Below, piece after piece: positions 2,006 through 58,512 of a DNA stretch of 64,000 nt. The notes below the pieces were generated by a model. That model saw only the letters and a list, made by a program, of their open reading frames with translations, ran no database searches and had not been told where the DNA came from. Source of the stretch: Argyresthia goedartella. Its lineage: Eukaryota > Arthropoda > Insecta > Lepidoptera > Argyresthiidae. Location: assembly GCA_949825045.1 (NCBI GenBank), contig OX463815.1, forward strand, positions 29,937,356 to 30,001,355. The letters run 5' to 3'. The position numbers and the translations under genes were made by a program. The number at the start of each line of letters is the position of its first letter. Position 1 is the first letter of the stretch.

Positions 2006-2359
2006 TGTCACCGTAACATTGTCAAAACCGTTAGTTTATAAGCCATCGAAATATTGTAAGCCAGACCGATACGGTTTAGAATTTATGTTTCTTTGTTCTT
2101 ACATGTCAACCTAACATGAAGACTATTCGGGGGCTTTGCTGCCCTCGCCCCCTCTAGTCTTCACCTAAGCTAAGCAGTGTTTGCCCTGGTATTTTCATTG
2201 CAATTCAAGTTTAAACCAGTTCACAATTTAACGGTTTTATAACAAACTAACGCGTCATATTGTGAGCAATATCGATACATTTTGCAATTTATCGATAATT
2301 TGTAAACTAATAAAACCGTTAGATTATAAACTATCGGCTTTGTCAATCTTACGGTGACA
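2006..2359 (+). mobile_element. Family B inverted-repeat element, copy 1
   Basis: About 354 bp with long inverted ends: TGTCACCGTAA on the left and TTACGGTGACA on the right, followed inward by a GTCAAAACCGTTAG motif. The centre (about 2093-2196) is the same core as in family A, here with GGGGGCTTTGCTGCCC. Other copies are at 20092-20455 and 49464-49848, with a split copy at 20555-21162. Confidence 0.85.
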
Positions 2360-2469
2360 CATGTCAGGATACTGGTTACCGTTGATAGAAACAAGCATCG
2401 CTGAGTTTAATCATATTTTCCAAAAACAATACTAGGATACAGGAGGATACATACAGGACATGAAACATC

Positions 2470-3010
2470 AGGAGAATTCAGAACTTTCTTCTTCGCCAGG
2501 CCAAAATAACTCTCGCTCAATCTCTTCCTCCTCCCCTCATTGATTATGCTGATGTTTGCTGAGCCAGCGCGAATGAAGAGGCTCTGAACAACTGAACAAA
2601 CTCGAACGACTTCAAAATCTCGGGATTCGGTTCATCTTCGGACTGCGCAAGTATGACCACGTATCTCAGCATCGCAGGGAACTGAAGTGGCTACCGATTT
2701 CGCTTCGACGGGACTTTCATATCCTGTGTTTCCTCTATAATATTTTGTGGAAGCCTCATTACCCTATAGGGTAACTTAGGGAGAGATTCGAAGATCACTC
2801 AGGTCTTCGAATCTCTTTCTTCAAGCAAGCCTCGGAGAACTCACATTTCGTCTATGATCAAAGCTCCGGATCGCTCCTCTGCAGCCTATGAGCAATGGTT
2901 CAGAATCCGAGCCATACGACTGTGAAATGAGCTTCCCTGCACTGTCAGTCACAGTACATCACTAAATATATTCAAAAACCGGCTAAAGAAGCACTATCTC
3001 TCCCTTTCTA
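2470..3010 (+). pseudogene. LINE relic, C-terminal part of reverse transcriptase ORF
   Basis: Conceptual translation, with stops and frame changes, gives jockey/CR1-type C-terminal phrases: LERLQNLGIRFIFGLRKYDH, then LKWLPISLRRDFHILCFLYN, and finally FKNRLKKHYLSLS. This is the region after the palm and thumb of the reverse transcriptase. No catalytic domain remains, so it is a dead 3' fragment. Its 3' UTR continues at 3272-3590 after an inserted element. Confidence 0.8.
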
Positions 3011-3032
3011 GTTCGATATATATTTATATATA

Positions 3033-3271
3033 TGTCGCAGTTAGTTGGTTAAATCAGACACTTAACTAACACCCTAGACCGTTAATAAAAGACCGTTAAT
3101 TTTGTTTTACATTATTTAACCAACACATCGGCTTTCGGTAAGACAGATTGTTAAACGTTTTCGACGATACTTTATTTAAATCAAAATGCTAGTGACTTGA
3201 TTAAAGGTCTGTCTTTAATTAACGGTCTAGGGTATTAGTTAAGTGTCTTATTTAACCAACCAACTGCGACA
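3033..3271. mobile_element. 239-bp inverted-repeat element in the LINE 3' UTR
   Basis: Inverted ends of more than 60 bp: TGTCGCAGTTAGTTGG on the left is mirrored by CCAACTGCGACA on the right, and further in CTAGACCGTTAAT pairs with ATTAACGGTCTAG. TATA lies on each side, consistent with a TA target duplication. It interrupts the LINE tail between 3010 and 3280. Confidence 0.85.
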
Positions 3272-3590
3272 TATATATTGGTATGTGTTATACGGTTTAT
3301 ATATATTGATACGTTGTATTTAAGTAATTGTGCATGCAGTCTAGTTTTAGCAATCAGGGTTATCTGTATGTATTGTTTGTAGTATACCTTGTATATATTA
3401 TTTTATATATATATATATTTCTTGTAGTACCTACTTATAGAGTTTATTGTACGCGGTCTTCCCCCGCTCAACCATCACTTTTCCTACCCATCATGGTTTG
3501 CTGGAAGAAATCTCTTGTTAGAGATAAGCTCGCCTTTGTACTTTAGTTATCTATATGTCGGTTTTCTGTAGTACAATAAAGAAATTAAGA
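3272..3590 (+). repeat. LINE 3' UTR with conserved terminal hairpin
   Basis: Contains TTTGCTGGAAGAAATC followed by CTCTTGTTAGAGAT and GCTCGCCTTTGTA, ending in AATAAAGAAATTAAG-type sequence. The same block closes fragments at about 19163, 31815, 25840(-), 43940(-) and 45740(-). ATCTCT/AGAGAT pairs as a small stem. I infer the 3' recognition structure of this LINE family. Confidence 0.75.
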
Positions 3591-3591
3591 A

Positions 3592-4190
3592 AATTACGAA
3601 ATAAACAAAAAGTACAAATCGATAATTTATTACTGTTTCATACAAAATCCTTTACTAAACCGAACTTAAATCTTACCGTTTTGGTTTAACTTAAAATTAA
3701 AATGTAAATTTTATTGCCAAAAATATCTCAATAAAGAGATCAAATGATTAAAATTACAGATTACATATTTTTATATACATATTTAGGAAACATCCAATTT
3801 AGTGGGTAGGTACCATTTTACTAATTACATTAAGAAGTAAATAATAATGAAATTTAATTAATTTGTATGTATGAACTTCCTTTTAAGCTTACGCTGTTTG
3901 ACGGTAGGAGCTTATATACTTATGCATATTTAATTTATCAACTTTTAAAGTGGGAGATACGAAAATAAGTTACATGACAGGTATGTGGCCCAGACAGCTG
4001 CTCGAAGATTCAGGGTTCAGAGTTCTTTATCAAGGGGTAGTATTTAAACGTATGACCGTAAATCCAGTTTTTGATTGACAAAAGTATTCGTTTTGTTCGA
4101 TAAAATTACAAAATTGCGCGAAAAAGTGAGCGCGAGTAGAAATGCTGGTTTTAACAACAGCGACTTAAAAACCGTATTTCGAGTAACATA
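3592..4190. other. AT-rich, no gene seen
   Basis: No supported gene, RNA gene or element with readable ends. Confidence 0.6.
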
Positions 4191-4216
4191 AAATACAAAA
4201 CTAGCGTTGTATTTCA

Positions 4217-4291
4217 TTGTTCTTACAAGTTCAACCTAACACGAAGGATAATGGGGGCTTCGCTTCGCTCCCCATCTTTACCTTCACCTAT
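4217..4291 (+). repeat. Isolated copy of the shared core cassette
   Basis: TTGTTCTTACAAGTTCAACC, then ACACGAAGGATAATGGGGG, then CTTCGCTTCGCTCCCC and CTTCACCTA. This is the core of families A-D, but no matching inverted ends were found around it. It may sit in a further, unrecognised element (about 4150-4430) or be a solo copy. Confidence 0.75.
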
Positions 4292-4489
4292 ACTGACCCA
4301 CCACTTCGCCTAGACAGTCCGGAAATAGCCAATAAGCGTTGGCAAATCATTCAGTATTTATTTCGCGCAATTCAGTACTTTCTTCGCGCATTTCAGTAAT
4401 TATCTCGATCATTTCAGCTACTTCCGCTGTTCATGGTCTTTCGCTCTATTAGTTTTTACTATGCCCCTTTATTACTGTAGGTATTTATA

Positions 4490-4565
4490 AAAATGTACAC
4501 GTAATTTTTTGCCTGTACCCTACTTTGGACCACTGTGGGAGAAAAAGGACAAAGAAACTCCCACA
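4490..4565. repeat. SINE-tail-like fragment
   Basis: TTGCCTGTACCCTACTTTGG and a CACTGTGGGAGAA block resemble 13490-13560 and the tail region of the third SINE family. Too short to place further. Confidence 0.4.
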
Positions 4566-4814
4566 GATAGTTTTTACGAACTCTTTCAAAAATATAGGTA
4601 GAGTTCAAATATGACATAATTTAAATATTAAGGATTATCAATAATAGATAGTAATAAATATAATATTAACACCGAGTTCTGTCTTGAGTTAGATTAACAC
4701 CCTCTTGTCGATTTTGATATCTTGGACTAACCCATTTTTAAATAAAGTAATCTACTTGCTTTTCAAATAAAGTGCATAACTCTGAGTGTCTGTCAATCGT
4801 CGGCCGTGCATCGG

Positions 4815-5052
4815 GGCCTTAGCGGGCCTCATACGGCCGGAATGCCTTTCTGAATTCAGAATAAGAATCCATATCGGATTTCCAGGAAAGCCTCAAACTT
4901 GTCTTAAAAAATCAGATTAATCGGTGCCCCATAGTTTCTGTGAGATCGATCTGAGAAATTTTGAATCAGAATTGATAAAATGTATGCATCTCCGGAATTT
5001 AGATTCAGATTCTGAATTCAGAGGCATTCCGGTCGTGTGACGTCAGCCTTAG
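4815..5052. mobile_element. Small inverted-repeat element
   Basis: ACGGCCGGAATGCC with CTGAATTCAGAATAAG (about 4834-4868) is mirrored at about 4997-5035 by ATTCTGAATTCAG and GGCATTCCGGTCGT. The outer limits are approximate and no coding sequence is present. Confidence 0.6.
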
Positions 5053-5513
5053 ACAGATTAGGTGTGGCGTCGTCGTTCTGATTGTCAATGTACTGTACTG
5101 TAACTTATTTTCTCGATCAAGGTGTACTAAACACTACAGGGCAGTGATATTTATTTACAGACATGTTCTATATTTACACATTTGATTTTAACTATTAATA
5201 CCCAACTATTAATACTTCGTTAAGTAATTACAAAAAATAACCTATATCTATAATACTTTGCAATTATAGGACGATGGGCACAACTTATGTACCTACCCCA
5301 AAGTTAAAACAATATAAGCCTCCCTATTTTTATGAATAAATCATAAATAATCGTACAATCTTCAATGAATGTTCTTTTTCATACATTTTAATGCTAATAC
5401 GTATGGGAACCAATTCTTTAGGTCAAGAACATTAAAACAGCAATAAAAATATTACAGCGACTATTATATAACACTATATGTATGTACACTGAGTACATAG
5501 CGACAAACTCGTA
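5053..5513. other. AT-rich, no gene seen
   Basis: No supported feature up to the target-site duplication of the family A element at 5514. Confidence 0.5.
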
Positions 5514-5522
5514 TTTTGTAGG

Positions 5523-5788
5523 GGCTAGTATTTAATCGCCATCAAAAATACTGATTTGCACAGCAAAAAAGGATCAGAATAACACTTTTTATATTTTAAA
5601 TATTTTATGTGTACTCAAGTTTATGTTTTAAGTATTTTTTGTTGTTCTTGCATGTTCAACCTAACACGAAGGATAAAGGAGGCTTCGCTTCGCTCACCCC
5701 CTTTACCCTTCACCTAAGCTAACGCAGCATTTTGCCCTGATATTTGCTGTGCAAATCAGTATTTTTGATATGCAGTTTAATATTTCCC
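5523..5788 (+). mobile_element. Family A element, copy 2, with 9-bp target duplication
   Basis: 266 bp from GGCTAGTATTTAATCG to GCAGTTTAATATTTCCC. The terminal and subterminal arms are inverted (ATCAAAAATACTGATTTGCA on the left; its mirror on the right). The same 9-mer TTTTGTAGG lies immediately outside each end (5514-5522 and 5789-5797). The shared core occupies about 5640-5743. A 9-bp duplication is typical of Mutator-like elements and is also reported for Merlin. No ORF. Confidence 0.92.
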
Positions 5789-6167
5789 TTTTGTAGGCAG
5801 TTATGGAGTTTTCAGAGAATAGTGTTGACTCGAGTTAGCAACACTTACTTACGTGCAAAGTTAGAAATGGCACCTAATCTCAAAGCTCATTGCAGATGGC
5901 GCTGGAGTAGTTGCTGGAGGCTGTCTAGCCGTCAAAGTTATCAAATTCTATTTACTTCTTATTATTTAAGGCATGCCCATTTGAGGTTAATTGTGCCAGT
6001 GTCAAATGCATTTGATAGATCATGTGACGTTTTTTTGAACCTAACCTTAGATGGACGAAAGTCTTTGCCTCCAACTTCGCCAGCGCAACGAAAGACGGAC
6101 ATAGCTGCTATTACTGCCGCTGTTACTATGCGGATTATTTGCATGGTTACCATGTATGATTTCGCAG

Positions 6168-6369
6168 GGGAAATATTAAACTGCACATCAATAATACTGA
6201 TTTGCACAGCAAATATACTGATTTTCACAGCAAATATTAGGGCAAAAGCGAAGCCCCCTTTATCCTTCGTATTAGGTTGCACATTGAACAAAAATATTTA
6301 AAACATGAAAAGTTTTTTGCTGATCCTTTTTTGCTGTGAAAATCAGTATTTTTGCTGTGAGTACTAGCC
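6168..6369 (-). mobile_element. Family A element, copy 3, inverted, with 9-bp target duplication
   Basis: 202 bp, shorter than its relatives and in the opposite orientation. It runs from GGGAAATATTAAACTGC to GTGAGTACTAGCC. The 9-mer ATTTCGCAG flanks both sides (6159-6167 and 6370-6378). About half of the core is deleted (remnant about 6231-6290, with AGCGAAGCCCCCTTTATCC). Confidence 0.9.
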
Positions 6370-6933
6370 ATTTCGCAGTAGCAGTCTGGTCGATGACTGC
6401 TATCCTAATGCTAACCCGTATACAATTACAGTAATTTAAAGTGTGGAGTTTACGAGCATAATCTATCTTTTTATGGCTAACATCGGTAACTAATATAATT
6501 GTTTAATTTGATTCACTTAAGATGGGTGGGTAATTAAATTAGTTTGGTAGTTAACACCTAGAATAATATATCGTTGATAACTTAACTGGTATTGTGTCAT
6601 GACTTTAATACAAATTACTTACTAGTATTCCCTATCGGCAGTGCGTATAACTGAGACCACTCACTTTTCTGACAGTAAACACTTAAAACTACATAAATTT
6701 GTATTCGTTAACTAAGATCACATCTCACAAAAGTTTCACATGTAAGTACATGTAAGTACCCACTTCCAGTTCATGTCAATGTAAAAGAACGTGGTAATGC
6801 CATCTTGTGTTAGGTGCCTAGCAACTTGCAACAATAATGGAAAATGAAATCCATCATCGTACCTACATACCAATTCCAATTATTTCCAATAGGAATATTT
6901 TTAATTTCTTCTAGATTGTTTCATTTTATTTTC
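6370..6933 (-). other. Downstream of the Spatzle-family gene, likely 3' UTR in part
   Basis: Lies 3' of the stop codon at 6934-6936 on the minus strand. A minus-strand AATAAA sits at 6925-6930, only four bases past the stop, probably too close to be the main cleavage signal. The true transcript end cannot be read here. Confidence 0.4.
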
Positions 6934-7105
6934 CTAGTTTGTAGCGATAATAGAGCACTGGCAACAGCTGGGTATCCAAAACACATCCGTGTAAAGATTC
7001 TGGCCGTTTCCCTCCAAAGCAACCAGTCTTTTCTGGATGTACTTCTGCTCGCACCGCGTTGTGTAGCCGAGAGGAACGGAGCAGAGACCGTTGCATACCG
7101 TTGAT
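6934..7105 (-). CDS. Spatzle-family gene, last exon (second half of the knot)
   Basis: The acceptor TTATTGCAG precedes 7105, and the exon's first base completes a Thr codon. It encodes residues 354-409, with Cys 357, 361, 371, 400, 401 and 403, the conserved RCEQKYIQKRLVAL and NLYTDVFW segments, and a TAG stop at 6936-6934. Placing the cysteine-rich end in its own exon is consistent with the reading frame entering from exon 7628-7455. Confidence 0.93.
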
Positions 7106-10100
7106 CTGCAATAATAAATCAATTATTCGCTTCTAATTACGAAAAATCTTTCTCAATATGCTTTTCAAAAATATTACTTTATTGAATACACTGCCATCTT
7201 TGAACATAAAACAAACTAAAATAGTATGTCTACTCGATGCTAGGTGGCGCTGTAATTTAACAAGGTTGAAACTTCCACAAGATGTCGCCAGCCGTTCTGC
7301 GTTTACTCATCCGAATACAAGATGTCTCCTCAAAACAAAACTGTGAATCATGAAAACTGGAGTTTCCACAGTAAATGCACGGCACCAAAGGGGTTACCGA
7401 AGCTGTTAGAACTAATCCTAAGAACTCTTCGGCAAAATCAACACATAAACTCACGTGCAAATCTCAGCCTTCACCAGCTGGGTCATGTTATCCGGCATGT
7501 TCACCACATACTTCCAGCTGCCTCTGTTGTTCAGAGCCGCTCGCGGCGTGATGAAGGAGGTGCGGACTTGGCAGAGCTCCTCCGTGCCGGAGGCCTGCCG
7601 CCGGGGGCGCTCCGCCGATGTCTCTGCGCTAGAAGACGAAATAATTCTTGTTTGGGTTAGTTACATATCTCTTTTGTTTAACTGTTTATCAAACATCCCA
7701 AAAGTAAATCATCCCAAATTTACAAAATGTTCATCAAAAGAAAGTGACCTATAGCAACCAATACGGTTCTGTGAAACTACATTGGGGCACAAAATTTTTA
7801 GTTAGTTAGAACATACATACAATCCTAAACAATATATCTGCTGCCGTTACATATAGTCGGCGTGATTCACTAGTTATGTTATGCAATGGACAAACCCTGC
7901 TTGCCAGATATATCGTGTTTTCACGTATTTGTCTGACAGATAAGGTCCATACATAACATAACTTGTGAAACAGGCCCTTAAGGTCGGACATTCAACAGTT
8001 GTAGTCAAAGTTTACTTACTCATAAGCTTTCCGATCAAAAGCATACAACCTTTTTAATTGGTTTTGGACTTTATCACCAAGACATGAAGTTGAATATTCG
8101 GTGGGAATATATTTCCCTCTAACCAGAAAAGGGTTAACCGGCCGTCTAGCTAGTCGACCTAAGAGCAGCAACACAGTAATCTAATGCGCACCACTAACTG
8201 TCACAAAATAATCCCTAATTTAGACCCGATGTGTCAAAAAACCCATAGATTTAACCAAGAAAATTTAGGGTTCATACGTGGTTTGCTTAAAAACCCCAAA
8301 AATCGTTCCTGGCTAGACCAAAAAACCCTAGTAACCCCTGCAAAGTCTTATACCCTGGTGTCCTCGGGCTGCACCAAAAATACAGGGTTCCTTTCTGGCT
8401 TTGAGAACCTAGTGTCTTTTGACTAGTCTAGAATATCCAGGTGTCTTACCTGGCGAGTCCGAGGGCGATCTTCAACGCCTCCGCGCCGCTGAGTTTCCTC
8501 TGCCTCGAAGCCCTCACCAGCTCCGCATTCCTGCGCTTCCTGCCGCGAGCCAGCAGCGTGGAGTTACGTCGGCTGGTGAAGGACCTGGTCGGGTATGTGA
8601 TGGAGCGCTGGACTGTCACGTCGGAGCGGGATGGTGATATGTATCTAGGATTAGGAGCGTAAAGTAAAGTAAAGTAAGTAAAGTAATGTTTATTTGCATG
8701 AATATGGGTTTAATAATGTATGTCACTTAAATTATGTTCCACTATATTCTGCCATGCAGACGTGAAAATGTTATTATTTACAACACAATAATCATACAAT
8801 TAAATTAAATTAAGTACCTATCTAAAAATTTCTAAGAGTATGTTTTATTTACAATAAATTTATTATTTTATCATCATGTTATTTATCTATTTATGTATCA
8901 TAAAATAACATATATTTGTCATCCAAGAAGTCCTCTAACATATATGATATTTCGATTAAAAAATATCTAAGTCCAGCCTTGTATGAATGTAGTTGGTCAA
9001 TGACTCTAATGGATTTAGTCAGCTCATTATATACATTATCTACAAACGTATCATAAACCCTCTTTACTGCGTCGAAAAACCGCATGTTAAGACCAGCATA
9101 ATGTAAAACTATTTGGTAAAAACTCATTTCTTATCTGAAAATTTGTACATTATGGTCATAATGTGTAATTTTTCTACATATTATGACATTCAAATTTCGA
9201 ACGCCGACGCCCGCCTGCGTGCCGCCCCTAGTTTGTCTGTGAAGTTGGTACTACTGAACAAGCTTAACAACTGTAGGAATGATCAATGCCACAATGCGGA
9301 CACGGAGCAAGGAACATGCGGTTCCTGAACACATCAAAGAGAGCTTATAATATGTGTGTAGATAAACTAGTGTATGTAACTGTACATAATTAGGCATTAA
9401 AACTCTCGAGTGATATTATTATGAAACTCGCCTTCGGCTTTTTTCATAAACCCACTCTCGAGTATTAATGCCCTCCATTATGTAGCAGTCAAATAAACTA
9501 CTATTTGGCGCCATTCCATGGAGACGGAAACGAATGACGTGATAAAGTTCACCAGACCATCCAAACCATTCCACCAACCAGCACCCGTGGTCGCGTTTAT
9601 CGCGCATTTCATAGCGTCTATGTATGGCACATTTTTGTGTTTAGAAGTGTCAGTGAGTCGCTAATTTTGACATTTAGACGCGATAAAATGCGTTAATAAC
9701 GCGAGTCGCGCGGGGTGTACCGGTGCAGGTCCAAATCTTAATGTTCAGGCACTAAATCTTCTGCACAGTCAACACCTGATGCATAGTCAACAACTCAAAG
9801 TTTATCGGCCACTCAAACTCAAATTATGCTGTTTAAGGTAATGTCAGCACCATTGTGCGGCATTTTATTGTGGTCTTTGTTGGCGAATGAATTATAACAG
9901 CAGAATGATTTTGAGTGGAACTATTTACAGCAGAAGATGACTTACCTCCACCAGTCATTAGGGTTATACTGCGTCGTCCCACTACCACCTCGAAACCAAT
10001 CCGTGGACTCATAATTCGGGTCATAAACCGGCGGGTACCGATTCTGGGTGTAACCCGAGTTCGGGTTACCCGTTTCTCTCAATAACTTCTTTTGGTAAGT

Positions 10101-12826: not shown

Positions 12827-12829
12827 CTG

Positions 12830-19289: not shown

Positions 19290-20090
19290 TCTAAAATTGT
19301 ACATGTCTTCAGATTGTACAAAAGGTGTAATTCATAAGAAAGCTAGACCATAGGTAAATACTATAAAAACCTAAATACACAAATGGTAATTTATCTGCCG
19401 TTCCAGTATCGGAACTGTTCCTGTATACTTGTATAGTCACGAGTGCATATCTGAGAAAATACTACAGGCCTTAAGATAATAATGATTAATTCGTCTAGTT
19501 CTTAGAATTTAAATTAAACACCATTGTAACGGCATGAACAATGCTCTAGTTTAAAATATTTACCAATCGTAGTGAGTGACTCGTGCAATAGTGACTCACC
19601 GGAAGATAGAAATGTCAATGTCAAAGTGTAGCCTCTGTTTGATGAAAGTCATTGAAAGTTTTATGACATGAATCACGAATTCATATGTTGTGTTAAGAAA
19701 TCGCTATTGCAGTCTTTCGACTGAGGCCCGGATGCGCGGCCGCAACTCAAAGTTTAACGGACTCTTTGGCTGCTATTGTCTCTCGATCGCGGAATCACGG
19801 CTCTGTATGCATACGCATTTGACCCTTTCTCTGCTGGCCGGAAAAGAAAAAATAATGACACAACAATTAAGGCAAATTTAATGTTTTTTGCCCATAAATG
19901 CCCACAATAGAATCTACAGTACTCTAGGTGACGTCTGTCATAAAAGTTCCGTGTTAGGGTTTACGCGAGTCTACAGGGGTTTGAACACGCGTCAATAACG
20001 CAGCTTTAGCTTTAATTCTAGGCCAAACCAGTTGGGAGAAGAGTATGGCATTAATATATGTAATACGGGGTATGAAAGAAAGATGTAGTT
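19290..20090. other. No gene seen
   Basis: No supported feature. The short frame near 19690 has no motif. Confidence 0.5.
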
Positions 20091-20091
20091 A

Positions 20092-20455
20092 TGTCACCGT
20101 AAGATTGTCAAAACTGTTAGTTGATAAAATAACGTTTTTTTCTCGTTAGTTGGTCAACTAGCGACAGATAGTAAACTGTAGCGTACTGCTTACTATATGT
20201 CGCGTTAGTTTAGTTGATAAACTAACGGTTGAAACTGTTAAATAGTAAACTGGTTTAAACTTGAATTGAAAACGAAATACCAGGGCAAACACTGCGGTAG
20301 CTTAGGCCCCCGAATATTCTTCGTGTTAGGTTGCCATGTAAGGACAAAAGAAACGTCAATTCTAAAACCTGTCGGTCTGGTTTACTATCTGTCGATAGTT
20401 GATCAACTAACGCGTTAGTTTATCAACCAACGGTTTTGACCATCTTCGGGTGACA
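20092..20455 (-). mobile_element. Family B element, copy 2, inverted
   Basis: TGTCACCGTAAGATTGTC at the left; TGACCATCTTCGGGTGACA at the right. TA precedes and follows the element. The shared core reads in reverse (about 20275-20352: CACTGCGGTAGCTTAGG, then CTTCGTGTTAGGTTGCC). Much of its hairpin arm is deleted. Confidence 0.85.
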
Positions 20456-20465
20456 TATATTAACG

Positions 20466-29648: not shown

Positions 29649-29914
29649 GGCTAGTATTTAATCGCACATCAAAAATACTGATTTGCACGGCAAAAAAGGA
29701 TCAGCAAAAACATTTTTAAGTTTTAAATATTTTATGTGTACTCAAGTTTATGTTTTAAGAATTTTTGGTTCGTCTTTCATGTTCAACATAACACGAAGGA
29801 TAATAGGGGCTTCGGTCCGCTCACCCCCTTTACCCTTCACCTAAGCTACCGCAGCATTTTGACCTGATATTTGCTGTGCAAATCGGTATTTTTGATGTGC
29901 AGTTAATATTTCCC
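29649..29914 (+). mobile_element. Family A element, copy 4, with 9-bp target duplication
   Basis: 266 bp, the same length and ends as copy 2 (GGCTAGTATTTAATCGC ... GCAGTTAATATTTCCC). The 9-mer AAACAAAAT flanks both sides (29640-29648, 29915-29923). Core at about 29770-29873. Confidence 0.92.
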
Positions 29915-44722: not shown

Positions 44723-44724
44723 GA

Positions 44725-46433: not shown

Positions 46434-47255
46434 TACATACAGTTCAAACACATAACCCTCATTTTTGCGCGCTGCAGTCGGGTAACAAACACAGGGAATC
46501 GAGAAACAGACCAGCAAACATATATGTGTATGTTACGGCTAAAGCTAGGTGTGAAACTAAACTTAAGTTTAGCCGGCTAGTCTTAAGATTAATTTCGAGC
46601 CTCCGCAAACGTCCGAAATAATGTTCATTGCGATAAATGATTTCAACATTAGTCGGCTAAACTGCAGTTTAGCCTCGACGATGTTGAGGCTAAAGATGGG
46701 TGAGAAAATATGGTTGGCATTAGCCGACTAAACTTAAGTTTATTTTTCAGTATACCTAGGCTAATGTTGGCAAATTACCGTCTTAATCTGGAATAAATGA
46801 TGATAATGATGAACAACAAAAAATACTTATGTTCGTCTTATTATAGTTTTTGTTGTTCTTACATGTTCAACCTAACACGAAGGATAAAGGGGGCTTCGCT
46901 TCGCTCACCCCCTTTACCCTTCACCTAAGCTACCGCAGTGTTTTGCCCTGATATTAGAAATAGCTTTCTCATCTGAATAAAATTACCCCGCCCCGCTCCG
47001 CAGTCGCACGAATACTTCGTTTTCAACATTAGCTAGCTAATGTCCAACATTAACCGAAACGCATCGGCTAATGTGTAGTCTAGCCGATTAAAGATGAGAT
47101 CCGTTATCACAAATGAACATGACTTCGGACATTAGCCGAGGCTCGAAATTAATCTTAAGACTAGCCGTTAGTTTAGTTTCACACCTAGCTTTAGCCGTAA
47201 CATATACATACAGTTCAAACACATAACCCTCATTTTTGTGCGCTGCAGTCGGTTA
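46434..47255. repeat. Direct repeat around the family C element
   Basis: ACATACAGTTCAAACACATA, ACCCTCATTTTTG.GCGCTGC, AGTCGG occurs at 46434-46485 and again at 47206-47255. It is much longer than any target duplication, so the element sits between two copies of a local repeat. Confidence 0.8.
46531..47203 (+). mobile_element. Family C inverted-repeat element
   Basis: Inverted ends of about 70 bp: TGTTACGGCTAAAGCTAGGT, AACTAAAC, then CTAGTCTTAAGATTAATTTC, mirrored on the right. TA precedes and follows. Internal inverted AACATTAG/CTAATGTT words repeat. The shared core is at about 46851-46955, with a full hairpin arm TAAAGGGGG/CCCCCTTTA. Confidence 0.88.
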
Positions 47256-47728: not shown

Positions 47729-47730
47729 AT

Positions 47731-48115
47731 ACAAGGTGATTTCGGAGTCGTGATCCCAACCATTTTTTTCTGACTCAGTAAATTATTGCGATGCTACCTG
47801 TATTTATTTTAATTGAAACAAAGATGATTCGTTATTTACGTATTTTTATTTAAAAATTATTATTGACTCAAAATGCGTGGTCACCCTACTTTTAATATTA
47901 CACCTTTTTAGAAAATTAATAAGTTGTTAAGTCCATGCACTTGACATAAGTTTTCTTGGGAAATAGTAGGGTGACCATGATCTCGAAATATCGCAGTTTT
48001 TTTTTGCTGACAAAAATAAGTCGCTGGTGTACTGTTAGTCCTAACCTATCATGATCCTTAGGAGAAAGTAAGTTAAATGCTTCTTTCTTGCTCCACGACC
48101 CCGTAATCATCCTGT
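47731..48115. mobile_element. 385-bp inverted-repeat element
   Basis: Left ACAAGGTGATTTCGGAGTCG with TGATCCC; inverted right end GGGGTCGTGGAG, AATCATCCTGT. TAT/ATA flanks suggest a TA target. Internally GTGGTCACCCTACTTTTAAT is partly answered by ATAGTAGGGTGACCATG. Confidence 0.75.
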
Positions 48116-48193
48116 ATATATAACAAAACAGAAATTAAGTAAAACAATAAATAATAATGAAAATTGACAAAAACAAATATTGTGGATAACATT

Positions 48194-48312
48194 TACGTAT
48201 AGGCACCAACATTGCTTCTGGCCCCATACTAGGATACCCTGTGACCTAGGGATTATTTTTCTTTATTCCCAGCCGGGATTCGAACCCGGGACCGCTACAC
48301 CGCAGAGGTCGA
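48194..48312 (-). mobile_element. SINE-2 (tRNA-derived)
   Basis: TTGCTTCTGGCCCCATACTA; the complement has GGGTTCGAATCCCGGCTGGG as B box. Internally shortened. Confidence 0.82.
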
Positions 48313-48319
48313 CATGGTA

Positions 48320-49460: not shown

Positions 49461-49463
49461 ATA

Positions 49464-49848
49464 TGTCACCGGAAGATAGTCGAAACCGTTAGTTGATAAA
49501 CTACCGCGGTAGTTGATCAACTATCGATAGATAGTAAACCAGACCGACAGGGTTTAGAATTTACGTTTCTTTTGTTCTAACATGTCTACCTAACACGAAG
49601 ACTATTCGGGGCTTTGCTGCGCTCGACCCCTCTAGTCTTCACCTAAGCTATCGCAGTGTTTGCCCTGGTATTTCGTTTGCAATTTAAGTTTAAACTAGTT
49701 TACTATTTAACGGTTTTAACCGTTAGTTGATCAACTAACGTATAGTAAGCAGTACGCTATAGTTTACTATCTGTCGATAGTTGACCAACTTACGAGAAAA
49801 AAAAACGTTAGTTTATCAACTAACGGTTTTGACTATCTTACGGTAACA
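49464..49848 (+). mobile_element. Family B element, copy 4
   Basis: 385 bp. TGTCACCGGAAGATAGTCG at the left, GACTATCTTACGGTAACA at the right, with TA outside each. Core at about 49566-49676 (CTAACACGAAGACTATTCGG, GCTTTGCTGCGCTCGACCCC). Confidence 0.88.
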
Positions 49849-49919
49849 TATACATATTTTAACCAACGTAAAAAGGCGGAAGATTCTCAATTTGTCAGGA
49901 TCTTATGTGGTGGTTATAT

Positions 49920-50780
49920 ATTTTTATCGATGTTCAGCGATTTCTCGAAGACGGCTGGATTGATTTGGAAAATAGTATTTTTTTTTGAAAGGGTTTACCT
50001 TCCAATTGATCCCATTGCATCCGGTGAGGATCTAAAGATAGGATCCTGGAGAAATCGAGGGAACTCTTCAAATTTAACAGGCAGACCCATTTCGATTTTT
50101 AATTTTTCTTAGTGCTTTTAGTCGCGGGAAGCATAATTTTAAGACGACAGATTGCGACGGAACTGCTCTATAATAATAATAATAATAATAATAATTTGGA
50201 CACCATTTACACACATTGATCTAGCCCCAAACTAGAATTCCCTGTATCTTGGGTACTAGACAACGATACACATACGTATATAGATAAATATTAATACTGA
50301 GATAGATAAACAACCATGACTAGGGTACAAACATCCGTTCTCATCAAACATATATTTGCCCCCACCGGGACTCGAACCCGGGACCCTTGGTTTCGTAGGC
50401 AGCGTCACTGTCGACTCGGCCATTCGTCTATACTTGGTTCCCGCAGATTGCTATGTGGTTACTTTATTACGGTTTCAAGTAATGTATTCTCGTGAATGCA
50501 TATGGTGATGTGGATGTGATAGTGACATACTTGGAGAGCTTCTCAATTATTTATCAGTCATACAGGACCTCATCATGGGATGGTGGAGAAATCGAGGGAA
50601 CTCTTCAAATAATAAATGCATGCCTATAGCAACTTGGGTATTTTGCATAGTAACTCGCGTATTTGGAAGCTTAGCTCTCGGGATGACTTGGTGAGTTGGA
50701 ACTGATGATAAAAACTACAGATGTCCACCGGAACTACTCAATTCAGGGTATTTAGTAAATTGCTTAATGGTTGCTAATCA
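49920..50780 (+). repeat. Dispersed repeat interrupted by SINE-1
   Basis: TTCAGCGATTTCTCGAAGAC, GGCTGGATTGATTTGG, GGAGAAATCGAGGGAACTCT appear at 49930-50075; the last phrase recurs at 50589-50610. A related start (TTCAGCAATTTCTCCCAGGC) is at 50896. Ends unclear. Confidence 0.6.
50168..50428 (-). mobile_element. SINE-1 (tRNA-derived), inverted
   Basis: Starts with (AAT)n, then CACACATTGATCTAGCCCCA, and ends with CGGGACTCGAACCCGGGAC (B box complement) and CGACTCGGCCATTCGTC (A box complement). Confidence 0.9.
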
Positions 50781-50867
50781 AATGGGGATTAAGTGAAGTT
50801 AGTTTTTTATAAAGTTTTAATTTTTGTTTAAATTATGTTACTTTTTTATTTTTTATGTACAACAAAT

Positions 50868-50896
50868 AATATATATTTTTATATTATTTGTTGTTC
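50868..50896. repeat. Small AT-rich hairpin
   Basis: AACAAATAATATA and TATATTATTTGTTGTT pair across an ATATTTT loop region. Confidence 0.7.
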
Positions 50897-51116
50897 AGCA
50901 ATTTCTCCCAGGCAGATGGACCGATTTGGAAATTCCTTTTGAAGTAAATTACGTCATATGTGTCGCTGTGAGTTTGTATGGGGGCAAAATTTATAGATTA
51001 TGCAACGGACGATCTTAAAGCGCATTAATTTTCTATTTACTATCGAAAAGCATAAAATGAATAAGATATGGTTACTTATCAATTAATGATAGATTGATGT
51101 CGGTTTTTTATGGTTC

Positions 51117-51140
51117 CGTCAATCAATCAATCAATCAATC
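51117..51140. repeat. (AATC)n microsatellite
   Basis: GTCAATCAATCAATCAATC run of about six units. Confidence 0.95.
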
Positions 51141-51885
51141 AATATATTTTTTATTCTATTGGATGATTACATATCTCTTGGCGCACGACATCATTTAATA
51201 GTAGGTGTACGTTCCAAAAGCAGATGCTTCTCAAAGAAGAACGTACAAGAAACTCTGAGCTGCTCTTTTCCTTAGGAAATACTTATAACTAATAATATTT
51301 CATTTACGTTTATTTTTAAGACAGCCAATGGAAGAAAAGTAGTTTACCCCCAAGGATTTACGTCCTCTAGATAATTTGACAATAAGTAATATCCCTTCGA
51401 ACATAATTGAATTTTAAAAAAAGTTTTGAATTTATGTGTCGGTAAGCTTTGAATCGTATCGGGGTATTTATTGTACATTAGCTGATGAAGGTATTGGACA
51501 TTTTGTAGAGTCTACTAGAGTAGCTGGACGGTTTATTCTTACTTCTAGTATTAAAATTATGGTTAACGCATTTCTTTTTGAACCGGTGGATATTTTTCTT
51601 GACACTTGTTGGTCACCTAAAACTTGTCTCTTATCAACTCCCTCGGACCGGTTTCTGCAGAATAAATATGCGATATACATCCGAGGCATTACCCCACAGC
51701 TGGATACCATAAGACTTCAAGCTGTGGAAGTAGCCGAAGTAAACTAATCTCGCGGTATCCACATCCGAAATACGTCGGATTATTTTTATGGCTAATGCTA
51801 TAGAAATATGCTCTGTCTACCCGCTAGTGCCTAGATTTATCCACAAGGCTCAGTCTTTTATTTTTTTATTATATTAGTGGGTGTC
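51141..51885. other. No gene seen
   Basis: A 103-codon plus-strand frame at 51436 has no recognisable motif. Position beside a LINE relic suggests mobile DNA. Confidence 0.4.
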
Positions 51886-51889
51886 TGTT

Positions 51890-52140
51890 TTACATTGGGT
51901 GGAGAAACTTTACAGATTTGGTTTTATTTTCATTAAGTAGAAAACCAATCAACTACTTTGGAGATAGCTTTGTTCACTTTATCATAAACTTGTTGTCCTT
52001 TAACTTTAAAGAGTAAGGAAGTATCATCCGCGAACATACAATTTCATGCTCAATATTAACATAATCGGCTAGGTCGTTTATAATAAGAAAAAGAAACGGA
52101 CCTAATATTAAGCCCTGTGGAACGCCCATGCGTACCGGAT
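51890..52140 (-). pseudogene. LINE reverse transcriptase relic with catalytic region, frameshifted
   Basis: Minus strand reads RMGVPQGLILGPFLFLI, INDLADYVNIEHEIV, then only in shifted frames ADDT, SLKLKDNKF and AISKVVDWFST. This parallels residues 464-540 of the LINE at 23-25 kb. A small deletion removes the YIND tyrosine, and shifts break the FADD box. Confidence 0.85.
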
Positions 52141-52179
52141 CGTCGATACGCATGGGCGAGGGGTCAAAACGGAGCACTA

Positions 52180-52810
52180 ATCTGACACTCACGTGTCCGT
52201 CCGTCCGACCGTCGTCTGTCACACAGGTTTAGCAGTCAAACGGTTAATGCTACGGTCTTCAAGTTTTCACAGTATAAACATCTTGTTTACCCAAAGCCTT
52301 AAAAAAAATCATTTTTTTAATGTGTTTAAGGGGAGCTTCCAACGATTAAAGGGGGACGTGAAAAAAAATATGATCCCCATCGAATATGCTATCGATGTTT
52401 AAAACTAGTTGAGTACTTAAATACTATCCATGTTACTATAAACAATTCTACACATAGTTTAACCTCAAAACAAACGTCAAATCCTATATATATTTGTTTT
52501 TAAATAAGTGTTTTACAGGAGTTTTTTTTGGTAAGACCCAATGTTTTGTTTTAAAAATATTGGAAAACAAAGGAATTAGAAGCCACCACAGTCAGCTATT
52601 TTTGCAAAGTTTGTACCGAAGATATCTTTAATTTCCCATTGACCTTTGACTTTAAAATTTGGTGATAATGTTTATTATTACGTATATATCTATAAACGTA
52701 TCTTTGAATTTTCCTCATTTTTAGGCTTGTATTCTACATTTATTACGGAATCCTAAAGCGAATTCCGACGCGCACTTGGCCGGGCTTTTTTACTTTTGAC
52801 TTTTTGTTAA
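52180..52810 (-). repeat. ACGG-type dispersed repeat, longer variant
   Basis: GTGTCCGTCCGTCCGACCGT, GTCACACAGGTTTAGCAGTC, TTAAGGGGAGCTTCC, TATGATCCCCATCGAATATG, ending in GCGCACTTGGCCGGGCTTT. Confidence 0.6.
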
Positions 52811-52814
52811 ATTC

Positions 52815-53470
52815 TTAACAAACATTTTTATCCCGCACCCTGCCTTCAGTTACGCTCTATGCCTGTAATTTCGATACTAACGGTCACAAAGCAAATTGAC
52901 CTTGCAAAGGTATTGCCCAAATAGACGACAGAACTGCTCAGCATAAAAGATCAAGAACCACGGCCGCTATCACCAAACAACTATCTACTCTCTGATCGCA
53001 CATTAATCTGTGACCACAGAGTTGACATTTATTGCCTTGGAATAAGACCGAAAGTGTGCTAGAAAGGGTCAGTGTAGGGTATTATGGGTAATTGGTTACA
53101 AGGTATGAGGTCCACGTAATGTAACTACGAAACAGTGCTATGGGGAATACCGATTGTTATCGACCAAGCTATTGTGCTAAACCTTTCGCCTTAATCTACT
53201 AGACATAGAGTCCAAAAGTTGCCTAGTGTAGAGTTTACTGATGTTTCTTTGGATTGAGGATTAGCCTGATCACAATCGGATACGTGAGTTGTGAAATTTT
53301 GCGTTAGGTCTTACTCCATTGAATGATGATATGGGGTACGCAATAACTACACTACATACTTACAAGATGTGTTCTGTTGATTTTTATGTACCCTTCAGGA
53401 GCTTTGCATTTTTTCGGGATATAACCCCAATACAAAACCCAACCACCCAAAACACAAAGAAATATTTATA
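52815..53470. other. No gene seen
   Basis: No supported feature. Confidence 0.5.
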
Positions 53471-53530
53471 TAGTTACAGGCAAATACATTGCTTCTGGCC
53501 GCACCCTAGGATACCCTGTGTCATATATAA
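53471..53530 (-). repeat. SINE-2 end fragment
   Basis: CAAATACATTGCTTCTGGCC and CACCCTAGGATACCCTGTG only. Confidence 0.7.
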
Positions 53531-53539
53531 CATACTTGT

Positions 53540-54455
53540 TTACATATATTGTATGTATTCAACGTATCTACTAGGAAATGAGAGGTATGGTCACGGCACG
53601 TGGTTTTTTACTCGTAGCGAGAGAGAGAATAGAGAAGAGATAGATACAGAGACTTATTGACCGGGTTATACCAAGGCACCCGTTACCTTATTACTTTCGG
53701 AGTCGACACACATTCACGTGAAAACCCACCCTACATCAATTATTCCACCATAAGGCCGCCAGGAAGTTATCGTAGGTCATGTCCACGTCAATAACAGAAA
53801 GAAGAAAGGGCGATTCCAGAAATTAAGACATTGAGTCTGTAAAAGGTCATTATTGGTCTCTCGCCAACTTTGACTTTTCCTGTTGATATTTGTACATTAA
53901 AACGCGTTTATAGAAATGAAGCATGGCTGCTGTTAAGTTGATCAGATTAAGACGACCTTAATGTATGATTGGTAGAATGAAAAGCCAGAGGTCTTGTGGT
54001 CGAATGTTGGCCATGGAAGTGAAAACTTTTCCTAAGATGTCTTCTATGATATATATTTTCCGACTTCAGTTTTCGATTTTGCCAATGTCACAGATACTGC
54101 TTTCAATTTTTAAGACGATTGCAACATCTGTGCTATTAAATTCCAAATTATTTTATTCTATCTCTTAGCCATTCTGATTGATAAATAATTCAATCAGCTA
54201 AATATTCCGTAGCGTAAATTGGTCGAAGTTTGTCATGAAAAAATTACAATAAATGTTAGTTGATTTTCATTGTTGTATTTTTTATCCAGTGCAACACGAT
54301 ACCAAAGTTATTTGCATCTAGTGCCTTTGAGACCCTCGCTCACTCAGGATTCTAAGGTAGAATCACTCGCTAAGCTCGTAATTCAAATATCACTCGCAGC
54401 AAAAATCAACTTTGCTCTCTTATTGCACAAATTACTATGACAGTTATATTTGCAT
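53540..54455. other. No gene seen
   Basis: No supported feature. Confidence 0.5.
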
Positions 54456-54457
54456 AA

Positions 54458-54637
54458 AGGCATTGCTTCTGGCCCCACACTACGATACCCTCTGTCGTGG
54501 GAACCAGACACAGCGATGTCACATACATATAAACATCCAAGACCTGGGGTTTTATTTACGTTACCCCAAGTTGGGGTTCGAGCCCGGGACCTCTTGCATG
54601 GTAGGCAGAGCCACAACTGCTCGCCACATAGGTCGTC
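54458..54637 (-). mobile_element. SINE-2 (tRNA-derived), longest copy
   Basis: TTGCTTCTGGCCCCACACTA through CACATAGGTCGTC. The complement carries a good B box (GTCCCGGGCTCGAACCCCA) and an A-box-like TATGTGGCGAGCAGTTGTGG. Confidence 0.85.
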
Positions 54638-54754
54638 AAAACAGATACAGGGTGATCGGTTCGAATGTGTCAGTATGGAAAAGTCAGAAACTATAAGAAA
54701 TAGCGAAATCTGTTCTTGGGACCCATGGCCTCGATTTAAGATTAAATATATATA

Positions 54755-56062
54755 CACAGTCAGGTCATAAGTTCTGTCACACAATAAAAACTTTTGAATT
54801 AAAAACGCTGGCCACAAAAAAGTTTATTGAATTCGAATTTCGAATTTTTCATGAAAATAAAAATGTGTACGTTTTAGAATTTTCCTCATTTTTAAATATG
54901 GAGTGGACACTTAAAGAAGACCGTGTCGCAGTTATTGCGTTGCATCGTTGCGGTTACGCGCCAATTCAGATTTTCGACTTACTGAAAAATTTGAATATAA
55001 CCAAAAGATTCGTTTATCGTACCATAAAACGATACAATGAAGACTCTAGTGTAGATGACAGGTCAAGAAGTGGTCGCCCTCGCTCTGTTAGGACTCCAGC
55101 AGTGATAAAAGCTGTGAAGGCGCGAATTCAAAGAAATCCCATATGTAAGCAGAAACTGTTGGCCCTTCAGATGGGGTTAAGCAGGACCACGGTGAAAAGG
55201 GTGTTAAATGAAGACTTAGGGCTTAGGGCATATCGAAGAAAAACAGGACATCGTTTGGACGCTCGTTTAATGGACCTGAGACTGAAGAGATGCCGCGCTT
55301 TGTTGAAGCGGTACGCGGGAAAAAAGCATCGGGAAATTCTTTTTTCGGATGAAAAAATTTTCACCGTGGAAGAGAGCTACAACAAACAAAATGATAAGGT
55401 GTACGCACACAGCGGTGAAGAAGCATGCAACCGTATTCCGCGTGTCCAACGAGGTCATTTTCCATCCTCGCTCATGGTTTGGTTGGGAGTCTCTTATTGG
55501 GGCTTAACTGAGGTACATTTTTGTGAGAAAGGCGTAAAAACGAATGCAGTTGTGTATCAAAATACAGTCCTCAAGAACTTGTGGAACCTGTTTCTCATAC
55601 CATGTTTAATAACAGTTACTGGGTATTCCAACAAGATTCTGCGCCAGCTCATAGAGCGAAAAGCACACAAGACTGGCTGGCGGCGCGTGAAATCGACTTC
55701 ATCCGGCACGAAGACTGGCCCTCCTCCAGTCCAGATTTGAGTCCGTTAGATTATAAGATATGGCAACACTTGGAGGAAAAGGCCTGCTCAAAGCCTCATC
55801 CTGATTTGGAGTCACTAAAGGCATCCTTGATTAAGGCAGCCGCCGATATTGACATGGACCTCGTTCGTGCTGCGATAGACGACTGGCCGCGCAGAATAAA
55901 GGCCTGTATTCAAAATCGCGGGGGTCATTTTGAATAAACTTTATTACCATAAGAATCTATGTTTTATTAAGTTCATTTTGCTATATAAATGTTTACATAA
56001 ATAATAAACATGTCTAAATTATTTCATATTGCACATGTGACAGAACTTATGACCTGACTATG
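54755..56062 (+). mobile_element. mariner transposon, 1308 bp, nearly complete
   Basis: Inverted ends of 27 bp (CAYAGTCAGGTCATAAGTTC...TGTCACA) differ at one position. TA lies immediately outside both (54753-54754, 56063-56064). Length, TA target and transposase fit the Tc1/mariner superfamily. It carries one frameshifted transposase gene and no other cargo. The well-kept ends suggest that it could still be moved by a transposase supplied in trans. Confidence 0.96.
54898..55937 (+). pseudogene. mariner DD37D transposase with one frameshift
   Basis: ATG at 54898 (MEWTLKEDRVAVIALHRCGY). Two N-terminal helix-turn-helix regions (about 1-120) are joined by the linker RSRSGRPRSVRT. The catalytic triad is visible: FSDEKIF (first Asp, before the shift), VFQQDSAPAH (second) and SPDLSPLDYKIW (third). 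There are 37 residues between the second and third Asp, the DD37D (maT-type) spacing. The frame breaks near 55575, between AGAACTT and GTGGAACC: one base is missing, after which the correct frame runs to TAA at 55935. The whole would be about 346 residues, the usual family length. No other stop was found. Confidence 0.93.
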
Positions 56063-56071
56063 TATATATGG

Positions 56072-56125
56072 CTACGATGTAGCTACGACAAATATATATA
56101 TATATATGTCGTAGCTACATCGTAG
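56072..56125. repeat. 19-bp perfect hairpin next to the mariner end
   Basis: CTACGATGTAGCTACGACA (56072-56090) and its exact inverse (56107-56125) flank an (AT)n loop. Confidence 0.95.
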
Positions 56126-56164
56126 AATTTGATTATTTCATAAAATAGCCAACCATTTATTTCC

Positions 56165-56300
56165 TGAAATGATCAGAAAGGGTTGAATTTCACGACAACA
56201 TGTCTTTTTAAAAGCATTTGTATTCAGAACTACGTGGTGTTTCTTGTGTTATACATGTCGACCTATCACGATGGCCTTCGCTGCGCTCGCTTAAATATTT
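56165..56300 (+). repeat. Dispersed fragment similar to 38.04-38.15 kb
   Basis: AAAGCATTTGTATTCAGAAC, TACGTGGTGTTTCTTGTG, TTATACAT correspond to AAGCATTTTTATTCAGGATT, ACATGGTGTTTTTTGTG, TAATACAT inside the 37.5-kb transposon. It then has CTTCGCTGCGCTCGC, similar to the core cassette. Confidence 0.55.
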
Positions 56301-56309
56301 CTTCGTTTA

Positions 56310-56635
56310 ATGTATTTTCTAATTCAACCATGGTTGATATAGTCAATTCTATGATATTTGTTACGACATATATATGGTTTCGTTTATGATGTATATTTAA
56401 AATGTCCACCATTTGGGTTATTTTGCGGATGTTATGCTATGAGTAGTGATTAGACAAAACCACTGTAATGCTACAAAAAATGCCTTTATTGGCAATTAGG
56501 AAAGATACATATTTTTTTGCCTCCAATTATATAAAGCAAACTTGCTCGTGAAATAGTCGTAAGCTTCTAATAATAGCTCTTAAGTAACCTATCTCGTATG
56601 TTTTGATCTATTCAGGATGTAAAAGAAAGATGTAG
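56310..56635. other. No gene seen
   Basis: No supported feature. Confidence 0.5.
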
Positions 56636-56639
56636 TCAT

Positions 56640-56770
56640 ATTAAAGGGATCAGCTGACCTCCCGGCCCGAAATGTGTAGAGAAGTGAAAAAATAAAGTTG
56701 GTCTCATCAAATTGGTATCATAGTGAAAATTATTCAGAATGATGTCCCTAACAACTCCCTAAAACATGAC
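56640..56770 (+). repeat. Dispersed repeat H, copy 3
   Basis: CCGAAATGTGTAGAGAAGTG, ATAAAGTTGGTCTCATC, TTCAGAATGATGTCCCTAA; matches 58930-59050. Confidence 0.7.
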
Positions 56771-56844
56771 TGCACCTTTCTGTTAAATCCTGTATATGTG
56801 ACCAAAACAAATAATGTGGAACGTATTATATTGTAATGAGCTAG

Positions 56845-56930
56845 CCCCCTGTTACGCAAAATGGAATACTAAATTGAAGGACTGGCTAAACCTGCCACCC
56901 CGTATGGAAAACGGAGTTACGCTAAGAATG
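56845..56930 (+). repeat. Dispersed repeat J
   Basis: TGGAATACTAAATTGAAGG, CTGCCACCCCGTATGG; similar to 60090-60165 and 25685-25745(-). Confidence 0.55.
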
Positions 56931-57117
56931 AATGTATGTTGCATAATTGTCAATTTTCTGAAGATGGCTTTGGGACCTCATCAATTAAGTGATGCTTCCG
57001 AGCTGACTGCCCCTTATGCAAACAGGGTATAACAGAGAGGTGTGGGTAATCATATTTCAAAAGGTTTTTGGGGACACTTTTTTAATCAACTTTTTCGTTG
57101 AAGTTAATATGATCAGC

Positions 57118-57494
57118 CTTCATTCTTCCCTTCCCCATTTATCCGTCGGCCGCAGTTGCTCGCATCGCATCGGTTTCCATTTATCCGTCGGCCGCAGTTG
57201 CTCGCATCGCATCGGTTTATTCTTCCCTTCCCCATTTATCCGTCGGCCGCAGTTGCTCGCATCGCATCGGTTTATTCTTCCCTTCCCCATTTATCCGTCG
57301 GCCGCAGTTGCTCGCATCGCATCGGTTTATTCTTCCCTTCCCCATTTATCCATCGGCCGCAGTTGCTCGCATCGCATCGGTTTATTTTTCCCTTCCCCAT
57401 TTATCCGTCGGCCGCAGTTGCTCGCATCGCACCGGTTTATTCTTCCCTTCCCCATTTATCCGTCGGCCGCAGTTGCTCGCATCGCATCGGTTTC
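57118..57494. repeat. 55-bp minisatellite, seven units
   Basis: Unit CATTTATCCGTCGGCCGCAG, TTGCTCGCATCGCATCGG, TTTATTCTTCCCTTCCC. Starts are spaced exactly 55 bp from 57183 on, with the first interval only 42. Only a few point differences among units, so amplification is recent. As 55 is not a multiple of three, the same peptide phrases (SVGRSCSHRIG, RRPQLLASHR) appear in all three plus frames; none is a credible gene. Confidence 0.97.
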
Positions 57495-57499
57495 ATTGT

Positions 57500-58175
57500 G
57501 AATGTTGTTGAGAATTAGGTCAAAAACCACCCTTTACTATACAGGAATAGGTATGCAAGAAAGCGCCTACTTAAGGCTCGTTACTGGCTGCTACCACTTC
57601 CTTATGCCCTTTTGCCCTATGTGGGGTCGGCGGCCGATATGAGTTGTCTTCATTTTTCTCTGTCCAGAAATCAGAATACAGAAATCAGATCATTTATTGT
57701 GGTACGTAGTTTAAACAAGTAACAGATTTTAATTTAAAAGATGTCAAATATTAGGTCCTTTTATAGGAAATTGGCGTTTTGTATGGAGAAATTGAAGTTA
57801 ACTCAATTTTCAGTACAAACATATTTCTATTTTTTTTTTTGGAATGACAGATCCTAATTTTATAAACTTTGTGCGTATGAATGAGACAACATTTAGCTAA
57901 CAGAAAATTTTATATAATTTTTCAAAAGTGTCAGCCGTAAAAAAATATTACGAATATTATCATGAAAATTTATGACATTTAGGAGGCACTGATTTTGAAG
58001 ATAACATTTTAGTTATCAAACTGAAAATTAAAAGAAAATATAATAAGTAGATGTAAAATATTGAAATTAATTTTAAAACAATAAAAAAACTGGAAAGAGC
58101 TATAGAATTACTCGAACTATGAACTCCTGAATCTGTAAGAAAAATTCGCCAATTTCATAGGTAAGGACCCAATAT
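57500..58175. other. No gene seen
   Basis: AT-rich with a T-run at 57830-57840. No supported feature. Confidence 0.5.
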
Positions 58176-58184
58176 TAATAGATT

Positions 58185-58512
58185 GGAAGTGCCTCCGCAG
58201 CCGGCGCCGGCTTCCAAGATGTATGCGATTGGGAGCCGGCACATGTGTAGGTATGTTGGCAGGACTGAATCAAGTGTATGTCAATGTCAAAATGTTGAAC
58301 GTCATGAGGTTGGTTGGTTTCAAATATCAGGGGAAAACACTGCGGTAGTTTATGTAAAGGGTAAAGGGGGTAAGCGAACCGGAGCCCCCTTTATCTTTCG
58401 TGTTAGGTTGAACATGTAAGAACAACAAAACATGCTTAGTTTTAAGTACCTAAGCTACCGCTGTGTTTACGGCTACCGAATCGCCGCCGGCGCCGGCTGC
58501 GGAAGCACTACC
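58185..58512 (-). mobile_element. Family D element with GC-rich ends and 9-bp target duplication
   Basis: 328 bp. The left end GGAAGTGCCTCCGCAGCCGG, CGCCGGC is mirrored by GCCGGCGCCGGCTGCGGAAG, CACTACC on the right. The 9-mer TAATAGATT flanks both sides (58176-58184 and 58513-58521). The shared core lies inside in reverse (about 58326-58428: AACACTGCGGTAG, CGTGTTAGGTTGAACATG). Confidence 0.93.

Follow-up and report, generated by a model that had tools for sequence, protein, structure and literature searches.

A short non-coding core sequence lies inside at least ten repeat families with dissimilar ends in the moth Argyresthia goedartella

The core and its carriers in the window

The stretch of DNA examined here, called the window below, is 64,000 nucleotides from the moth Argyresthia goedartella (positions 29,937,356-30,001,355 of contig 9). 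It holds recurring copies of a non-coding sequence of approximately 102 bp that we call the core. The genome searched was the assembly of 1.109 Gb in 89 contigs from which the window comes, and there the core is found inside at least ten repeat families, denoted A, B, D, E, F, G, H, I, J, and K, the majority of which are small DNA transposons. A first-pass annotation of the window had placed the core in four families, A through D, and these do share it. The number of carriers given there was too small, and its family C is our family E. Core positions were obtained by blastn with the copy at 5640-5743 as the query, and the matches fall at the same places that the first-pass annotation had listed. 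In addition, CTTCGCTTCGCTCACCCCC with at most three mismatches occurs five times in the window, where 0.01 occurrences are expected.

Family A is represented on the plus strand by elements at 116-343 (core 202-296, supported by matches to A flanks), 5523-5788 (core 5640-5743), and 29649-29914 (core 29773-29870). The second of these is bounded by the duplication TTTTGTAGG at 5514-5522 and 5789-5797, and the third by the duplication AAACAAAAT. A minus-strand remnant of the same family at 6168-6359 retains a broken core, recovered as a fragment at 6246-6284 (minus). Family B elements lie at 2006-2359 (plus; core 2093-2192, which is of a second core type), at 20090-20460 (minus; broken core, a minus-strand fragment at 20277-20347), and at 49464-49848 (plus; core 49572-49671). 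The family E element occupies 46531-47202 (plus; core 46851-46954), and a family D element with a 9-bp duplication occupies 58185-58512 (minus; core 58324-58427, also minus). Matches to the K end and interior, together with alignments, place a family K element at 56098-56370, with a broken core near 56247-56289 and no strand assigned.

Two further repeats in the window complete this set. The family H element at 3033-3271 (plus) carries no core, and its alignment with four core-bearing H copies indicates that it misses more than the core alone. At 4098-4386 (plus), alignment reveals a family J repeat whose ends are not fixed, with an inverted repeat (4098-4123/4361-4386, 81%) and a diverged core at 4217-4310. 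This core had been described as an isolated copy at 4217-4291, which is not the case because it belongs to a family of at least 40 copies. Indeed, a 211-bp query from this repeat (window positions 4150-4360) scored 40 places in the genome, and the 39 besides the window copy are 79-85% identical to it.

Abundance and hairpin of the core

The core is common throughout the genome. A 28-base piece from its left half has 6,990 exact occurrences and a 37-base piece from the E-type right end has 323, with zero for each control. A 21-mer of the core has no exact match in viral contigs, and a gathering-threshold scan of the window against Rfam matched no family to the core. The sole Rfam match in the window is to mir-2780, a silkworm family, at 55187-55274 (102.8 bits against a gathering threshold of 95.5).

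The core was also proposed earlier to have its own hairpin. This proposal stands for the consensus, which folds with a z score of -3.2 (2 of 200 shuffles fold as well), whereas the hairpin is weak in single copies (z scores of -1.1, -0.6, and -1.7). Among 206 matches to the left motif of the core, the loop is normal in 144, and 48 have no right arm within 60 bases. The remainder comprise 3 with the loop flipped (L084, L105, and L038, in which it is inverted between its stems) and 11 with the loop absent, at least one of which is a chance match. The scored cores thus number 158, of which 14 have an inverted or absent loop (3 and 11, respectively). Loop changes of this kind are what copying errors at a hairpin would produce, and the gap-repair explanation given below needs template switches of the same sort, but they are no proof of it.

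Among the sampled loci described below, tandem arrangement is limited to one array, and the remaining loci hold single cores or inverted pairs. The array (L034-L036; contig 2, approximately 34,458,820-34,459,073) consists of three core-derived units arranged head-to-tail with a 108-bp period, and the right half of a family B element lies beyond it.

Sampling of the carrier families

Our first sample consisted of 78 loci of approximately 3 kb each plus the window. It provided 115 copies with a core that reaches the right end, and 104 after overlapping loci were removed. Most of these loci were retrieved by the 37-mer and eight by similarity to the A core, and the shares of the families are therefore biased. 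Clustering by short matches was dropped because it chained families via module edges, and it was replaced by the scoring of flank motifs on the left and right separately. A forced global comparison was likewise dropped because it understates the divergence of unrelated flanks. By motif scoring, 80 of the 104 copies have the same family on both sides, 3 have two families, and 21 were assigned on one side or on none. Eight families (A, B, D, E, F, G, H, and I) came from these copies. Families J and K were added later, the latter through a palindrome search that also returned a symmetric E copy.

There are 107 copies with C or G after ATAT (100 of them listed), and the 20 that were fetched, all with C, include no clear new family. 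Four flanks in this set stay without a family assignment: the right one of L135 and the left ones of L130, L132, and L141.

Two candidates were set aside. Family K was at first a candidate donor of the core. One K copy (L044), however, has a core nearer to the B type (score 97 versus 85), and K is thus a further carrier. Elsewhere, a K end lies beside a G element (L096). The other candidate, a left flank shared by L002, L006, L008, L060, L126, L128, and L137, was considered as a chimeric partner and proved to be a separate nested repeat, X (TCTACACACGTATCATAAACCC ... CACATAAACTACTATTA), in the six places checked (all of these except L060). It was therefore not counted as evidence of exchange. 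Repeat X occupies varied places in both orientations inside A and H, and it is also found beside an F half. Its loci include L008 (1062-1470), L002, L142, L143, and L144, and it adjoins the core, at times in several copies.

Ends, target sites, and flanks of the carriers

With regard to the features by which miniature inverted-repeat transposable elements (MITEs) are recognized, terminal inverted repeats are present in seven families (A, B, D, E, G, H, and K; imperfect in G), and target duplications are present in A, G, and D. The ends of F, I, and J are not fixed. For family A, 12 of 20 end pairs from the sampled loci and the window have 9-bp target duplications, versus 0.6 in shuffled pairing. 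In family G, such duplications bound 8 of the 12 end pairs that carry the core (the expectation across all 16 pairs is 0.4). In family D, the 9-bp duplication is present in one copy, seen on both strands. The 9-bp duplications that had been reported for A and D are thus confirmed.

Families B, E, and H are located at TA sites, and for E and B these are TA or TATA. The first-pass annotation suggested a TA duplication for B and its family C. The TA location is borne out, but a 2-bp duplication is inseparable there from target preference (for E, 43 of 72 rows versus 43.9 after shuffling, with the near-symmetric E counted on both strands). At least two target-site types are present among the carriers, and so two transposases are probably involved.

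The outer parts of the carrier families are not alike. In pairwise tests of flank consensus sequences from the first eight families, 20 of 105 reached a level of at most 3 in 300 shuffles. The strong matches are module edges, which include 41-45 bp just left of the core among A, G, and H and 14-18 bp just right of it among A, F, and H. There is also a left-flank match of 28-35 bp among D, E, and I, a match of 112 bp between E and I in the inverted second arm, and a 22-bp stretch in the outer left flank of E that resembles the left edge of A, G, and H. When only outer flanks are considered, 3 of 49 tests reach the same level, namely the E/I second arm and the right sides of A/B and A/E, the latter two over 12-13 bp. 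The flanks of J and K match no other family at a level of at most 4 in 200 shuffles. The earlier statement that the ends of the four families are unlike is therefore upheld, and the flank comparisons revealed no single ancestral element with alignable ends, the outcome that the first-pass annotation had named as refuting its proposal of one core in unrelated families.

Forms and variation of the core

In families A, F, G, and H, the module consists of one arm and has a left extension that these four families share. Families E and I have a facing second, inverted copy of the core, of which a remnant persists in D, and the arms of one E copy (L166) are 124 nt long and 98% identical. Families B and K carry the second core type. 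In the B core, one hairpin stem is altered on both sides, such that GAAGGATA/TACCCTTC becomes GAAGACTA/TAGTCTTC. Over core columns 1-65, net divergence ranges from -0.006 to 0.010 in all 21 pairs of A, D, E, F, G, H, and I, and from 0.117 to 0.136 in the seven pairs involving B. These values derive from 76 of the 104 copies (28 with a truncated core start were dropped), with only two F, three D, and three I copies.

The left border of the core varies between groups of families. Near its right end, the sequence is CCGCAGCATTTT in A, CCGCAGTATTTT in G, and CCGCAGTGTTTT in E, D, and I, and among H copies not selected by the 37-mer it is often CCGCAATGTTTT. A tree of 83 cores requires 28 family changes, for which the minimum is 7 and shuffled labels give 42-55. 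Removal of the last 17 bp raises the number to 37, and so much of the family signal is located at the right end of the core.

Exchange of the core between families

A trace of exchange is found in families F and H. In both, the core is directly followed by GCTGTGCAAATCAG, which is part of the right terminal repeat of A, and the stretch of this inverted repeat carried along with the core measures 14-18 bp. The inverted partner of this piece, CTGATTTGCACAGC, lies near the left end of A and is absent from the consensus left flanks of F and H. Insertion of a whole A element would have brought both ends, and the missing partner therefore suggests that only part of an A element was copied. One of the two readings offered by the first-pass annotation was that the core is an exchanged module that would give a transposition or expression advantage. 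As far as exchange is concerned, this reading is supported by the A repeat piece and by the near-identical core consensus of the families.

A common view holds that a miniature element originates from incomplete refilling of the gap that remains after a transposon excises. Based on the patterns described above, we consider it rather probable that the core has passed between families through interrupted gap-repair copying, which leaves ragged edges, into newly shrunken transposons and has then been amplified with them. A transposon would excise and leave a gap that repair refills incompletely, and during this repair a stretch of an abundant hairpin sequence would be copied. We infer that this step proceeds by template switching in repair of the excision gap and is helped by the hairpin. 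The shrunken new element would then carry the core as filler and amplify it along with itself. The 6,990 exact copies of the 28-base piece make the core a common ectopic template. Furthermore, gap-repair copying would yield ragged left borders, the half of the A repeat in F and H, an absence of empty sites, and one core variant per family. The choice of this particular filler may reflect chance through abundance or a benefit to the carriers, and both are compatible with gap-repair copying. A mobility benefit of the core is no part of this proposal.

Several observations weigh against gap-repair copying as the explanation. No gap-repair event was observed directly, and the mechanism alone gives no reason why the same filler is present in families of different ages. 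Copies that join the halves of two families number 3 of 104, and one of these has a weak left score while another is within the tandem array. The core tree retains some family signal, indicating that exchange is not continual. Moreover, the right border of the core is nearly constant (CCTGATAT, followed by differing bases in A, D, E, G, and I), as a jumping element would give. Among individual copies, we note one in which the left half of A is joined via the core to the right half of I (L019) and one in which the left half of A is joined to the first bases of the right flank of E (L009).

Alternative explanations

The core might instead have been retained because it helps its carriers to multiply or to evade silencing. 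This idea is compatible with gap-repair copying, and we regard it as a tentative proposal with perhaps a minority chance of being correct. It would account for the presence of the core in families of different ages, as indicated by the divergence among J places and by the second core type in B and K. Moreover, in 20 G copies picked by flank motifs only, the core diverges from its consensus by 0.040, about half of the values for the two flanks (0.075 on the left and 0.088 on the right; paired tests, p = 0.003 and 0.048), and the left extension by 0.032. When 44 G copies are divided into two left-flank groups, differing sites number 7 of 64 in the left flank, 0 of 150 in the module, and 2 of 72 in the right flank. 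The left-flank contrast in this split is circular, and the right flank differs from the module at p = 0.1. Hand-made G groups of three to eight copies point in the same direction. However, a younger module or homogenization fits the low divergence of the G core as well as constraint does, and samples of A and H show no clear reduction in core divergence relative to the left flank (0.060 versus 0.062 in A).

The other reading put forward in the first-pass annotation was that the core is a small element that has inserted repeatedly into other elements. In this form, the core would be a tiny transposon, perhaps palindromic, that jumped into the ancestors of the families. The near-constant right border would suit such an origin, as would the facing inverted arms in E and I, including those of the E copy with 124-nt arms. 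The left borders, in contrast, differ, and none of 40 copies picked by the core 28-mer consists of the core only (35 have known-family flanks on both sides and 5 on one side). Strict pattern searches, which miss diverged copies, yielded no clean core-less copy of G, A, or E. For G they returned three core-less copies, all of them deletion remnants that keep pieces of the module, versus 3,007 with a core-sized interior. For A they returned five places, of which three plainly keep core letters and two are ambiguous, and for E none; the count of core-bearing copies for comparison covers G. The same strict patterns found no empty site with a duplication of its own at the core for G, A, or E, and one F copy that lacks the core (L017, 545-795) is an internal deletion. 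A genuine nested repeat, X, behaves otherwise, given its varied places and two orientations. Thus, the core does not behave as a small jumping element. An extinct core-less ancestor may nonetheless have existed, and we consider a transposon origin of the core unlikely overall.

Descent of all ten families from one core-bearing element whose ends have diverged or been replaced is very improbable given that outer flanks are unlike in 46 of 49 tests, that the flanks of J and K resemble those of no other family, and that there are at least two target-site types, although the ends of B, E, and H begin with TGT and lie at TA sites and those of A and G begin with GGC and have 9-bp duplications, such that some of the families may share a transposase.

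Comparison with known systems

The ends of miniature DNA transposons are the basis of their classification, and different families are not expected to have interior sequence in common. The presence of one core in ten families, with at least two types of target site among them, would mean that miniature elements exchange interior sequence, and grouping by interior similarity would then merge unrelated families. A sequence could also survive by moving on from host transposon to host transposon. Should the core help its carriers as well, it would be a cis-acting booster. Our literature search, for which most subscription journals were outside coverage, returned no title or abstract describing one core in DNA transposons with different ends.

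The closest parallels are the central domains of short interspersed elements (SINEs), which one report (PMC3272025) describes as CORE, V, Deu, and Ceph, along with HaSE1 and HaSE2 in Helicoverpa armigera. As in the case presented here, these are short non-coding middles common to families that are otherwise different, and template switching has been proposed for chimeric SINEs in the same text (PMC3272025). SINEs, however, are retroelements copied through RNA, whereas the carriers of the core show inverted repeats and target duplications, as DNA transposons do. For this reason, we rejected the idea that the core is a SINE central domain on a retroposon headed by an RNA polymerase III promoter. 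It is conceivable, albeit somewhat doubtful at present, that DNA transposons have in this core their first shared central domain. The core would then be a hairpin cassette that improves the success of each miniature transposon gaining it, under whichever transposase, and unrelated families of different ages would have converged on it.

A second parallel is provided by the oyster Helentrons named Cg_HINE, for which PMC7492417 reports satellite-like central repeats and discusses filler DNA. In both systems, flank and central modules are combined in various ways within non-autonomous elements. Cg_HINE elements, as portrayed there, belong to one superfamily in which every pair of flanks has its own associated tandem repeats (PMC7492417), whereas here one mostly single-copy core is found in families of at least two target-site types.

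Finally, the silkworm elements BmMITE-1 to BmMITE-17 are likewise small and non-autonomous elements of a moth, with duplications of 2-9 bp according to PMC2997013. Their arrangement is the reverse of the one seen here. Four BmMITE families are described there as having similar inverted repeats and dissimilar interiors (PMC2997013), whereas the families in A. goedartella have dissimilar ends and a shared interior.

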